Shown here in pieces: positions 2,862 through 8,551 of a stretch of 64,000 nucleotides of DNA. A program made the translations under genes and the position numbers. This DNA comes from Proteinivorax tanatarense (lineage in GTDB: Bacteria; Bacillota; Proteinivoracia; Proteinivoracales; Proteinivoracaceae): NCBI RefSeq assembly GCF_040267685.1, contig NZ_CP158367.1, positions 2,914,001 through 2,978,000 on the forward strand, given 5' to 3'. Positions within the stretch are counted from its first letter, which is position 1, and each line of letters begins with the position of its first letter. The notes under the pieces are model-generated. The model searched no databases. It had not been told where the DNA came from and saw only the letters and a list, made by a program, of their open reading frames with translations.

Positions 2862-3656
2862 TTATTTAAAATAATTGCACGGTCGCTTACATGGACATTT
2901 TTGTTTAACAGCCTCAAGGGGCTGCTCTTTTTTTATTCTCTTTAAGTTATTAAATGCTTCTTTTATCCTTTCATCGTCGCCCTCTAAAACTAAAGAAATA
3001 CTTCCTTGACTATCTCCATTTCCACCAGCTGCAAAAGGAATAGATTTGACACCAAATTTCTCACTTACAGCTTCCACTTCTGTTATTACTTGTCCCGTTG
3101 AAACAGGCACAAGCCCGACAGGCATTCCCAACGAATAATTTATTTCTTCAATTCCCCCTGCTAATGAGGCTTTCCGTACGGATGGAATTAACTTTTCCAG
3201 CCCCACCGGCAAAACTAGGTTTACCCCTTTTGCGATAACAGTTCCTAAAGCCGCCCCAATAGTTCCCCCCTGAGGATGAGCTACCATAATACCTACGTTT
3301 TTATCACTATCTACTGCATTTCCACCCTTGATGAAAACATCGCCCTTCCCCATAGTTTCCAGCGCTTCCAGCCAAGTCAGTGAGGATATTTCCCCCTTTT
3401 CTAATACAATAGGCGATATTCTGTTTTCTTCAGGAGTTATGCACCCCCTCCCCTGACAAATCACTCCAGCTGTGTAAAGCTCCTTGTTAATTTTTTTTCC
3501 TGTTAGTTCTTCTACTATGTATCCGTTAGTTGTCCCTCCAGCTATAACAATTTTCCCTTTGTCCATAGCTTCTACAATTTGTGGAAGCTTTGAAATAGCT
3601 TTTGCAATCAGTCTTTTGCTTTCCGAGACATTTAATGTAATCAATGCTTTTTTCAC
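2862..3656 (-). CDS. Conserved-looking protein of unknown function with C-terminal cysteine cluster
   Basis: A 264-residue soluble protein that I do not recognise. It starts at GTG behind AAAGGAGG. The N-terminal half has Gly-rich turns ('GKIVIAGGTTNGYIVEEL', 'VFIKGGNAVDS', 'GGTIGAALG'). The C-terminal third ('GNGDSQGSISLVLEGDDERI') looks like a small alpha/beta domain. The tail 'KCPCKRPCNYFK' carries three closely spaced cysteines, which could bind a metal or be redox active. It is monocistronic, with the EamA gene converging on it. I assign no function. Confidence 0.75.
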   Translation of the reverse strand: MKKALITLNVSESKRLIAKAISKLPQIVEAMDKGKIVIAGGTTNGYIVEELTGKKINKELYTAGVICQGRGCITPEENRISPIVLEKGEISSLTWLEALETMGKGDVFIKGGNAVDSDKNVGIMVAHPQGGTIGAALGTVIAKGVNLVLPVGLEKLIPSVRKASLAGGIEEINYSLGMPVGLVPVSTGQVITEVEAVSEKFGVKSIPFAAGGNGDSQGSISLVLEGDDERIKEAFNNLKRIKKEQPLEAVKQKCPCKRPCNYFK

Positions 3657-4013: not shown

Positions 4014-5216
4014 CTATAGTGATAGTCTTTCAAAGGGCATTGACATGCAACGGGGTCCTCCCCGGCCTCTAACTAACTCTGAGCCTTCAAATTCTATAAC
4101 TTCTATGCCATTTTTCCTCATTATATCATTTGTTACAACATTTCTGTTATAGGCTATTACTGTACCTGGGGATAATGCTAATGTATTTGTGCTATCACCC
4201 CATTGTTCCCTAGCAGCAGTAATAGGATCATCTCCTCCAGTATAAATAATGTTAACGCTATAACCTAAAGACTCTGAAAGAGCTTTTTTCAATTCCCCAG
4301 CTTTTGTGGCTTCAACTTTTTTAGAATTTTTAGCCGTTAGCCTGTAAGTATAAATTTCGTCTTTTATTCCTGGATAGAGTATAAATTTATCTATATCTAC
4401 CATATTAAAAACAGTATCCAAATGCATGTATGCTCGTTGTGCTGGAATCTGGAGAACTAAAACTTCTTTAACTAACCGTTTATCTATTAACAACTGTTGA
4501 GCTACTGTTTCTATAGCTTGTTCAGTTGTTCTTTCAGAAAGACCTATAATCACTAAATCTTCTGATGCCATGATAACATCCCCTCCCTCAAGTCCACGAG
4601 GGATAGGCTTATCCAGTGCACATTCATAGTCTGAAAATTGACTATGATATTTGCTTATATATTCCATAAATAATGTTTCCCTTTGTCTAGAATCATTTAG
4701 CATTGACCCTAACATTACATTTTTGCCAACTGTAACGCTTTGGTCTCTCGAAAAATACATACTTGGAATAGGGGCCAAGTAAAATGGAAAGGTTTTTGTA
4801 GTTTGATCAGATAATGATTTACATTCTTTTAGAGTTTGTACATAATCTTTTTTTAATCCTCTAATTAGTGTTTTAACTACATAGCTTGCATCTTTTTCCA
4901 TAAGGTAATCATGTACGGCTTGTCGAGTGCTAAGATTGGCTATATGACTTAAATCTAAGTGTTTTATTATAAACTCCTCTTTTAAACTCTCTGTTTGTAG
5001 AACTTCTTCGATTAAATCTGTTAGGTAAAAAACTTCAATTCCTTGAGTCTCTAAGTTTTTAACAAACAAATCATGCTCTTTTTGGGCTCTTCCTAACCAC
5101 GGAATTTCATCAAACAATAGCTGTTCTAAATATTTTGGAGTTAAATATTCCAGCTCATCTGATGGTCTATGAACTATTACTTTTTTAAGTTGACCTATAT
5201 CTGAATTTACAGGCAT
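4014..5216 (-). CDS. arcA: Arginine deiminase
   Basis: A 400-residue arginine deiminase that hydrolyses arginine to citrulline and ammonia, usually the first step of fermentative arginine use. The guanidino-modifying fold motifs are present: 'IPRGLEGGDVIMAS' (substrate Asp/Glu), 'MHLDTVFNMVD' (catalytic His and Asp) and the C-terminal 'RGRGGPRCMSMPF' with nucleophile Cys at about residue 390. Neither arcB, arcC nor arcD is beside it, so the rest of the pathway must lie elsewhere or citrulline has another fate. The leader contains an unusual hairpin that covers the ribosome-binding site. Confidence 0.95.
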   Translation of the reverse strand: MPVNSDIGQLKKVIVHRPSDELEYLTPKYLEQLLFDEIPWLGRAQKEHDLFVKNLETQGIEVFYLTDLIEEVLQTESLKEEFIIKHLDLSHIANLSTRQAVHDYLMEKDASYVVKTLIRGLKKDYVQTLKECKSLSDQTTKTFPFYLAPIPSMYFSRDQSVTVGKNVMLGSMLNDSRQRETLFMEYISKYHSQFSDYECALDKPIPRGLEGGDVIMASEDLVIIGLSERTTEQAIETVAQQLLIDKRLVKEVLVLQIPAQRAYMHLDTVFNMVDIDKFILYPGIKDEIYTYRLTAKNSKKVEATKAGELKKALSESLGYSVNIIYTGGDDPITAAREQWGDSTNTLALSPGTVIAYNRNVVTNDIMRKNGIEVIEFEGSELVRGRGGPRCMSMPFERLSL

Positions 5217-5222
5217 TAAAAG

Positions 5223-5266
5223 ACCTCCTAATACTAATATATTTTCTTATATTAGTATTAGGAGGT
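5223..5266 (-). promoter_or_regulatory. Perfect 19-bp hairpin in the arcA leader covering its Shine-Dalgarno site
   Basis: Positions 5223-5241 and 5248-5266 are exact inverted repeats with a 6-nt loop. In the minus-strand transcript the 3' arm ends in AGGAGGT, the only ribosome-binding site for the arcA ATG 6 nt downstream. The folded leader would therefore hide the site. The 5' arm carries the matching anti-Shine-Dalgarno sequence ACCTCCT. A short T tract after the stem also allows reading it as a terminator-like attenuator. Confidence 0.75.
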
Positions 5267-5283
5267 TTTAAACAAATAATGCA

Positions 5284-5311
5284 AGTATAATTACACTTTT
5301 GTCGCTAACAA
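5284..5311 (-). promoter_or_regulatory. Putative sigma-A promoter of arcA
   Basis: TTGTTA (5306-5311), a 16-bp spacer and TATACT (5284-5289) read toward arcA. The predicted transcript would start near 5277 and fold the arcA hairpin almost at its 5' end. The promoter overlaps the 3' end of the microprotein gene. Confidence 0.45.
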
Positions 5312-5725: not shown

Positions 5726-7411
5726 TTAAATGGCGTATTCTGTAGCTACACCTGGATAATGCAGGATAATTGCTGTAACAAACATCCAAATTACAATCCC
5801 TATAAAGATGTTTAAAGATGTGCTCGGTGGTCTTTTTATTTTATGTAAAAACAAAGCAGTTAATAGTGCCATACTTATCCCAGCCCTCATTTCCATCCCA
5901 TCTGATACAGACATAGTTGTGCTTGTAACTTCCATAGGTGGCATTAAAATCATTAAGCCTAGTATTATCAAAATGAAAAACGCATAGGGTTGTTGGGTTA
6001 GATAATAAAGCAGACCCACTTTGTTAAAAATAGCCATTGATAGCATTATCAGCAAAATATATATACTGTTAGTAAAAAGAAATACTAACCCTCTAAAAGA
6101 AGATATTAACATAAAGAAGCCGAATTGACTAACAGTCCCCCCTCTTCCATACGGGTTTACTCCCACAGCCATCCATTTTGAGTACGGTGCTGGGTCTTTA
6201 TCGTTCTTATACATTGTATTGTGTATGACAAATGAAGAATCTGGGCATTGTCGATACCAAAAAGCATGGGCATACCCATCCACATAGAAAACTTTAGGCA
6301 GCTTAGAGTACTCTCTTTCCCAAGTAATTCTTCTAGGCGTGGATGTCAAAATATCTCCATCTTTATTCATTTTTATATATACTGCCTCGTAGTTTTCAAA
6401 CCTATCATCTGTCCAGGAAACTACTAAATTATTATCGTCAGACATGGTTATTGTAGGAAACCTTGATATTCCCTTCTCATTTGAGAGGACTTTCTTTTTT
6501 TCTATACCTTGACTATAACTATACTTTATATATTTCACATCAATTATATCATCTCCAAATCCATCATAAGTACAATAAGTATAGACTATATGAAGGTTTT
6601 TATCGGAGTCTTGTACAACTTGAGGAGCAATATCATTAACTACATAGTCAGTATTGGTACCATAAAAGCCCATTCTATGGGCTGCTGTATCCAGCTGTTC
6701 AAACTGCATACTACTATCGTTAACTCTAAGTAGCTCAATTAAGTGCTCTCTTTTATAAAGAATGAAAGCCCCACCCTCACCGTCAGGATAAATCTCCATA
6801 TTGGGGATAACTCCTTGATTAGGTGGAAGTTCCACAGTGTAGTGAAAGATCAACTCTCCGTCAGTCTTTCTTTTTTCTATTACCTCTACATCACCAACTG
6901 CTCTCTGTCTACCCCGATATGCTAAATATAAGAAATCTTCCTCTGCACCTATAGCCATATCTCTTATAGAATTAAAATCATTATCTATTTTTTCATCTAA
7001 CTCTATTTCACTTATTTTGTTATTTCCTTGATATACTGATAACGTAGGTAAGATATAATCTTCTTTTTCATTAGCCCATAATATATATTTTTTGCCCTGA
7101 TGTCGCATTAGGTCAATAATAAAGGTATCTTCTTGATCGCTAAATAGTTCGAATTTATCTTCATTTCCATCTATCTGTCCCCTAGAAATTATATAATTAT
7201 AAGTGTCATCTTCATTCTTTTCCCACCAATGGTTATATAAAACCTTTTCTTTATAGTCCCAATCAACATTAGCAGGAAGCTGATGTCCGTACACACTGTT
7301 AATGACTTCCTCTACAGACCAATCAAATCTATGTGTAGTTTGTTCGGCATTAGTAGGTTGGCTTAAAAATAAAACCATCAAGGTTGATATTAGTATAGTT
7401 TTTTTAAGCAT
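5726..7411 (-). CDS. Exported beta-propeller-like protein with C-terminal membrane domain
   Basis: About 561 residues. A signal peptide (MLKKTILISTLMVLFLSQPT, then NAEQ) is followed by some 390 residues of repeated beta-strand blocks with motifs such as 'VVSWTDDRFENYEAVYIKMN' (BNR/propeller style). Roughly four membrane helices follow from about residue 420. The propeller should face outside. I prefer the second in-frame ATG (7411), which has GGGGGT 8 nt upstream. The gene overlaps the permease stop, so the two are translationally linked. The role is unknown; sensing or binding a transported ligand is only an inference from the neighbour. Confidence 0.7.
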   Translation of the reverse strand: MLKKTILISTLMVLFLSQPTNAEQTTHRFDWSVEEVINSVYGHQLPANVDWDYKEKVLYNHWWEKNEDDTYNYIISRGQIDGNEDKFELFSDQEDTFIIDLMRHQGKKYILWANEKEDYILPTLSVYQGNNKISEIELDEKIDNDFNSIRDMAIGAEEDFLYLAYRGRQRAVGDVEVIEKRKTDGELIFHYTVELPPNQGVIPNMEIYPDGEGGAFILYKREHLIELLRVNDSSMQFEQLDTAAHRMGFYGTNTDYVVNDIAPQVVQDSDKNLHIVYTYCTYDGFGDDIIDVKYIKYSYSQGIEKKKVLSNEKGISRFPTITMSDDNNLVVSWTDDRFENYEAVYIKMNKDGDILTSTPRRITWEREYSKLPKVFYVDGYAHAFWYRQCPDSSFVIHNTMYKNDKDPAPYSKWMAVGVNPYGRGGTVSQFGFFMLISSFRGLVFLFTNSIYILLIMLSMAIFNKVGLLYYLTQQPYAFFILIILGLMILMPPMEVTSTTMSVSDGMEMRAGISMALLTALFLHKIKRPPSTSLNIFIGIVIWMFVTAIILHYPGVATEYAI

Positions 7412-8471
7412 AATCATCTACCCCCAATCCTGTTCTGATACCCTCTCCTAATATGTTTATAGATACAATTACTAAGAAAAGTAATAAGCCAGGAAAAAAC
7501 ATCATCCACGGATCATTAAAACCCCATGATGAATACTGTCCCAATATTTCTGCCCAACCTACTCCTCCAAATCCTAAAAAGGCTAAAGCTGCATCCATAG
7601 TTAGTATCTGACCCATGAACAGAGTAGACTGAACAAGTAGTAGACTCCAACAGTTTATAACCATATGTTTAAAAATAACTTCAAACTCACTGCACCCCAA
7701 CGATTCTGCAGCTTGCACAAATTCTCTTTCCCGCAAGCTTAAAAATTGAGCTCTTACTACCTTAGAAAGTAAACATCCACCATATATACTATAGAGCCAA
7801 ATTCTTACATCCATTCTACCAAAACCAACAAATGCTAAGACAGTCATAAATAGAACCAAAGGAACAAAAGCCAAAAAACTATTTACCATCCAACACACCA
7901 AAAAATCAGCAAATCCTCCTAAATATCCAGCTAAAGCACCCAATACCAACCCTAAAACAAAACTGTAAAATGTAGCTTTAACAGGAATTAACAATACATC
8001 TTTTGCCTGAAATACCAATAAGGACCATAAATCTAATCCGTTAAAGGTAAGACCAAAAAAATGTTCTCTAGAAGGTGATCTATCACTTGGCATATCATAA
8101 GGACCATAAACCGGCTGTGGACTATAAGTAGCAAAAAAACTAGGAAAAAAAGCCATGCCAATTAAAATAACCAGTATAGGAACAGCAAACCAAACCAGCT
8201 TATTTCTTCCAAACTTCCTTAAAAATATTTTTGCTGAGCGTTTAGTAGATTCAGAGTCCATAAAAATACTATCTTTAAAATTAACAAAAATTTCTTCTCT
8301 TTGTTTGCTTACATATTTTATTATAACGGCTAGTATCAAAAAAAATGAAACTAATAGAAAACCTTGTCCCTTAGGAAATAAATTAGGTATCGAAGTGTTG
8401 GCCAAAAGTCCATGAGTAAAAATATAAACAAACACACACAGCACCATAATTAGTCCCCAAACTTTTTTCAC
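7404..8471 (-). CDS. Orphan OppC/DppC-type ABC transporter permease
   Basis: About 355 residues with an N-terminal membrane helix pair and a typical peptide/nickel ABC permease domain. The EAA loop is clear ('FVQAAESLGCSEFEVIFKHM'), as is the family C-terminus 'LTMDAALAFLGFGGVGWAEI'. I chose the GTG at 8469-8471 because GGGGAGGGG lies just before it; an in-frame TTG further upstream lacks this. OppC proteins normally work with OppB, two ATPases and a binding protein. None of these is in the window, and the only partner is the propeller gene it overlaps. Confidence 0.85.
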   Translation of the reverse strand: MKKVWGLIMVLCVFVYIFTHGLLANTSIPNLFPKGQGFLLVSFFLILAVIIKYVSKQREEIFVNFKDSIFMDSESTKRSAKIFLRKFGRNKLVWFAVPILVILIGMAFFPSFFATYSPQPVYGPYDMPSDRSPSREHFFGLTFNGLDLWSLLVFQAKDVLLIPVKATFYSFVLGLVLGALAGYLGGFADFLVCWMVNSFLAFVPLVLFMTVLAFVGFGRMDVRIWLYSIYGGCLLSKVVRAQFLSLREREFVQAAESLGCSEFEVIFKHMVINCWSLLLVQSTLFMGQILTMDAALAFLGFGGVGWAEILGQYSSWGFNDPWMMFFPGLLLFLVIVSINILGEGIRTGLGVDDYA

Positions 8472-8551
8472 ATTAACCCCTCCCCATTTGAGCAAATTTT
8501 TTTAATAATACTCTTCTCTTTCTCATAACTCCATACCTCTTTTTTTGACCC

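Follow-up and report, generated by a model that had tools for sequence, protein, structure and literature searches.

In the leaders of the phage T4 genes e (lysozyme), soc, 49 and I-TevI, a hairpin locks the Shine–Dalgarno (SD) sequence in long read-through RNA (PMC3014915). At gene e, late promoters lie in the DNA of the structure's 5′ strand, and late RNAs, which lack that strand, are translated, the effect being about 100-fold (PMC3014915). For sigG (spoIIIG) of Bacillus subtilis, a hairpin longer than 20 bp has been suggested to keep read-through RNA of the upstream operon from being translated (PMC5942855 and references therein), and this hairpin cannot form in RNA made from the gene's own promoter (PMC5942855). 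Here we describe a hairpin in front of arcA1, an arginine deiminase gene of Proteinivorax tanatarense, which, if our preferred reading is true, would extend to a cellular metabolic gene the kind of read-through filter seen in T4 and sigG. The window, that is, the whole stretch of DNA analysed, comprises 64,000 nt (contig NZ_CP158367.1, positions 2,914,001 to 2,978,000). The source genome (G000) was compared with a congener (G001), a member of another genus (G002) and a member of a third genus of the same family (G003) and, for SD pairing and one neighbouring gene, with a further family member (G004).

On the minus strand, positions 5266–5223 read ACCTCCTAATACTAATATA-AGAAAA-TATATTAGTATTAGGAGGT, in which two perfectly complementary 19-nt arms flank a 6-nt loop; the 19 pairs sit within a 22-nt inverted repeat with one mismatch (Table 1). 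The 3′ arm contains the sole SD-like site of the gene, AGGAGGT, 6 nt from the ATG (5216–5214). The initial annotation had reported both the repeat and this overlap, and had proposed that the folded RNA blocks translation; all three points hold up. On RNA folding, the stem came out at −27.5 kcal/mol; shuffled sequences averaged −8.8 (z = −7.0), and none of 200 did as well. When one RNA carries both arms, folding predicts complete pairing of the SD with the upstream arm, as in the gene e and sigG type, at an SD accessibility of 0.0002. The hairpin has no second copy in the genome, which discards a repeat element, and a search of the window against Rfam at gathering thresholds returned nothing, which discards a riboswitch or other curated RNA family. 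It is a real feature, species-specific in its perfect form.

Table 1. Features at the arcA1 locus, in window positions
Feature	Position	Strand	Basis
Sigma-A-like promoter of the smORF pair, TTGACT-N17-TAATTT	5621–5593	minus	Counterparts in G001 and G002
smORF1, putative membrane protein of 41 aa	5568–5443	minus	Conserved together with smORF2
smORF2, putative membrane protein of 51 aa	5446–5291	minus	Conserved beside arcA in the family
Promoter of the initial annotation, TTGTTA-16-TATACT	5311–5284	minus	Not conserved, not above chance
Decayed remnant of a terminator-like hairpin after smORF2	5305–5281	minus	Comparison with G001, G002 and G003
Hairpin 5′ arm (anti-SD), ACCTCCTAATACTAATATA	5248–5266	minus	Inverted-repeat search, folding
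Hairpin loop, AGAAAA	5242–5247	minus	Inverted-repeat search, folding
Hairpin 3′ arm, with SD AGGAGGT at 5229–5223	5223–5241	minus	Inverted-repeat search, folding
SD–ATG spacer CTTTTA, U-rich, terminator-like tail	5217–5222	minus	Pattern scan, folding
arcA1, arginine deiminase, 400 aa, intact	4014–5216	minus	PF02274, E 3e-107; PRK01388 above cut-off

The predicted locking of the SD in RNA that holds both arms is what arcA1 shares with T4 gene e, and a Firmicute host and a large hairpin that would block translation of read-through RNA are what it shares with sigG. The differences are that arcA1 is a bacterial metabolic gene, neither a phage gene nor a sporulation sigma gene, and that the transcript starts of gene e and the promoter of sigG are mapped, whereas for arcA1 no promoter of a known class was identified in the 5′ arm.

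An RNA thermometer, another suggestion of the initial annotation, is contradicted by calculation. Stems of the ROSE and FourU families have internal loops and mismatches. The arcA1 stem covers the SD, as theirs do, but it is perfect, free of such interruptions and far too stable: predicted SD accessibility is 0.001 at 53 °C, 0.007 at 75 °C and 0.011 at 80 °C. In this model the SD is still more than 98% paired (about 99%) at 80 °C and does not open within a growth temperature range, so that a thermometer is very improbable.

The protein encoded by arcA1 has an arginine deiminase domain along its whole length (Pfam PF02274, E 3e-107), which places it in the ArcA family; among NCBIfam models, PRK01388 scores above its cut-off and TIGR01078, with 447 bits, below its cut-off of 489. 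A scan of genome contigs returned distant arcA relatives only. With dN at 0.06 and dS saturated, sequence comparison indicates strong purifying selection on arcA1, which must therefore be translated somehow. Directly upstream on the same strand lie two overlapping small reading frames, smORF1 and smORF2, which the initial annotation of the leader did not mention. They are 73% and 65% identical, respectively, between the source genome and the congener, their dN is well below dS, and the order smORF1–smORF2–arcA is kept in G000, G001 and G002, that is, in two genera. Neither has a Pfam or NCBIfam match, and a search of 199 genomes sampled from the phylum found smORF2 in only 3, each a member of this family.

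Between smORF2 and arcA, G001 and G002 have a terminator; G003 has a hairpin at this site, with arcA1 there a broken remnant. Among the genomes compared, the terminator has decayed in the source genome alone, and it is only in this genome that the perfect hairpin, a U-rich SD–ATG spacer and a decayed terminator occur together. The spacer is CTTTTA in the source genome, TAACTA after an identical AGGAGGT in the congener, and AGGAGGAAAAAAAT in G002. The arcA1 hairpin might then be no more than an intrinsic terminator for the smORF operon, a substitute for the lost one that overlaps the SD by chance. Our scan does call it terminator-like (1 found against 0.2 expected) and its flanks are A-rich and U-rich, but the strong stem is AU-rich and is followed by a weak U-tract, with a tail score of 2.0, where the G001 terminator scores 4.4. 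A clear terminator fused with an SD occurs elsewhere in the same genome, after a udk-like gene (G000:941199–941235, L124). The 3′ arm of that perfect terminator serves as SD for the gene that follows, which encodes a 477-aa penicillin-binding-protein-like product (both genes named by inspection), and the U-run of the junction, GGAGGG-TTTTTT-ATG, is the SD–ATG spacer. The two hairpins have in common a perfect stem, a CCTCC/GGAGG base and a U-run spacer, but at arcA1 the U-run is shorter and preceded by C and the stem is AU-rich. This precedent speaks for a plain terminator, as does the loss of the old one in G000 only; the congener's counterpart speaks against it, having no U-tract and yet keeping the SD pairing. 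On balance we consider a terminator with no further role rather unlikely.

The promoter with which the initial annotation placed the hairpin at the 5′ end of the message does not survive comparison. TTGTTA-16-TATACT is one of 5 promoter-like matches in a scan for which shuffles give 5.0; it lies partly within the 3′ end of smORF2 and has no conserved equivalent in G001 or G002, the corresponding G001 sequence being taken up by the last part of a small unannotated gene and by the terminator of that gene. The 5′ arm was scanned as well, and no convincing sigma-A promoter was found and no known class stood out. By eye, the 5′ arm offers an attractive match to a forespore (sigma-G/F) promoter, GCATT-N18-AATACTA in G000 and GTATT-N18-AATACTA in G001; this candidate was dropped, as the arcA site has two mismatches to the literature consensus and 49 of 229 genes (21%) have an equal or better match. 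By folding, RNAs that start past the 5′ arm have an SD accessibility of 0.38, against 0.0002 with both arms present.

A permanent 19-bp lock would silence arcA1, yet the gene is under selection; either its message lacks the 5′ arm, then, or the lock gets opened. Given the lost terminator, the U-rich spacer and an SD that an internal start would free, the simplest account is that the hairpin acts as an insulator between the smORF1–smORF2 operon and arcA1. We favour this terminator-like, insulating version over the other options of the initial annotation, namely a switch opened by a protein or nuclease and an attenuator, and hold it tentatively, as a reading that may well be wrong. Its starting points are seen directly: the hairpin, its overlap with the SD, the gene order, terminator decay in G000 alone of the genomes compared, and an intact arcA1 under selection. 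From these we infer read-through, a start inside the hairpin and termination, as follows. Read-through RNA from the smORF promoter would hold both arms, fold and hide the SD, so that little or no arginine deiminase is made from it, and the hairpin with its U-rich tail may also end part of these transcripts. The functional arcA1 message would be without the 5′ arm, starting inside that arm or the loop or being cut there; alternatively, some factor would open the hairpin on a full-length message. Also in favour of this reading are the terminator-like scan call, the terminator–SD fusion after the udk-like gene, the conservation of the 5′-arm block described below, and the precedents of gene e and sigG. 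Against it stand the low tail score and the promoter scan of the 5′ arm, which gave no convincing sigma-A site. The perfect form occurs in one genome only, and its coincidence with the other two changes could be fortuitous. If the insulator reading is true, this pair of closely related species makes it possible to compare how a terminator was lost and an SD lock acquired, and an SD hairpin seen in DNA may be absent from the translated mRNA.

Length alone does not set the arcA1 stem apart. Perfect stems of at least 15 bp are no rarity in this AT-rich genome (about 22 in 424 kb, mostly terminator-looking); what is unusual is placement over an SD. Among 202 SD-bearing genes from 424 kb of G000, three have a perfect stem of at least 8 bp over the SD, compared with 0 of 2,020 shuffles, a count that is only partly independent because arcA1 and the gene ranked second had been identified beforehand. 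The longest is that of arcA1 (19 bp), followed by that of a ylxY-like deacetylase gene (15 bp). Mean SD accessibility across the genome is no lower than in shuffles, so the SD stems are exceptional cases at the edge of the distribution and do not reflect a genome-wide tendency. A genome-wide SD-hairpin system was considered and rejected: the pattern CCTCC...GGAGG...ATG occurs 18 times in G000 against 5 in a composition-matched control, and 9 against 8 times in G001, a weak trend in which many matches are not hairpins. We also think it unlikely that a wider scheme applies, in which, after a terminator decays, the leader of the next gene evolves a perfect hairpin that ends and silences stray transcripts, with a promoter in its 5′ arm, and the genus reuses this device at several genes.

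Individual stems over SDs were noted at further genes. The ylxY-like polysaccharide deacetylase gene, which follows pnp, has a perfect 34-nt palindrome over its SD (G000 about 1461372–1461405; L008, 1499–1532) that is weakly kept in G001 (L096). An SD-hiding hairpin of changed sequence is present in both G000 and G001 at a gene for MTQKVIGVFSSRQQAEE..., general-stress-like by inspection (L042, 12997–13569; L119). In both genomes, too, the SD of a gene for a small acid-soluble spore protein is covered by CTTCTAGG...CCTAGGAGG (L142, L144).

The arcA1 pairing is kept in part among relatives. The arcA of the congener is 91% identical, with 48% identity at third codon positions (saturated), and its leader, AACCTTCTAATACTAAGATAAGAAAGAGAGCTATATTTCTATTTTAGGAGGTT, forms the SD-proximal 11 bp with one G–U pair, the upper stem being broken. 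An equal degree of SD closure is reached by 4% of shuffles in G001 and 20% in G002; SD pairing is weak in G002, and none was found in G004 or in arcA2 paralogues. Conservation of the pairing, on which the initial annotation had staked its proposal, gives a mixed picture: in the congener it extends to the lower 11 bp and not to the perfect 19 bp, and in the other family members it is weak or absent. A conserved RNA structure was also sought by covariation and rejected, there being no compensatory changes and fold z values of −1.4 (G001) and −1.1 (G002).

These comparisons bear on a regulated translational switch, in which messages would normally carry the full leader and the hairpin would be opened, when arginine deiminase is needed, by a protein, small RNA, nuclease or ion. 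Complete sequestration of the SD suits such a switch, as does retention of the SD-proximal 11 bp in G001, whose SD closure exceeds that of 96% of shuffles. Against it are the lack of an Rfam family in the window and of compensatory change between G000 and G001, the weak or absent pairing in G002, G004 and the arcA2 paralogues and, for a switch operated by temperature, the excessive stability of the stem. We judge a switch to be quite improbable.

The stem may instead be a mutational by-product, a quasipalindrome perfected by templated repair whose RNA hairpin has no role, with arcA1 transcripts starting inside it. The imperfect version in G001 suits this history. Where G001 has TCTATT, G000 has AGTA, a replacement that makes the 3′ arm the exact complement of the 5′ arm, and after ATATT, G001 and G002 agree against G000; the perfect form is for this reason probably derived, perhaps through templated repair. 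The absence of any role is harder to reconcile with the recurrence of perfect SD stems in G000 beyond shuffle expectation and with strong conservation of the 5′-arm block. In a 36-nt block that spans the 5′ arm and loop, from TTTGTTT to AAGAAA, G000 and G001 agree at 30 of 36 positions, compared with 48% agreement at third codon positions (P about 1e-5), so something within it is under selection. That block would suit a promoter or operator as well as a hairpin, between which two sequences cannot discriminate. A functionless by-product seems to us an unlikely explanation.

Several features of the surroundings were also recorded. Between the flagellar/mbl cluster and smORF1, at 5726–8495 of the window, lie genes for an OppC-like permease and a 563-aa protein, both missing at the corresponding G001 site. 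A conserved gene without a Pfam or NCBIfam family follows arcA1 at 2862–3656 on the minus strand (MKKALITLNVSESKRLIAKA...). In G003 (L147), arcA1 is without its 5′ part, and smORF1, smORF2 and the start of that following gene are intact; the gene adjoins arcA1 also in G002, G003 and G004.
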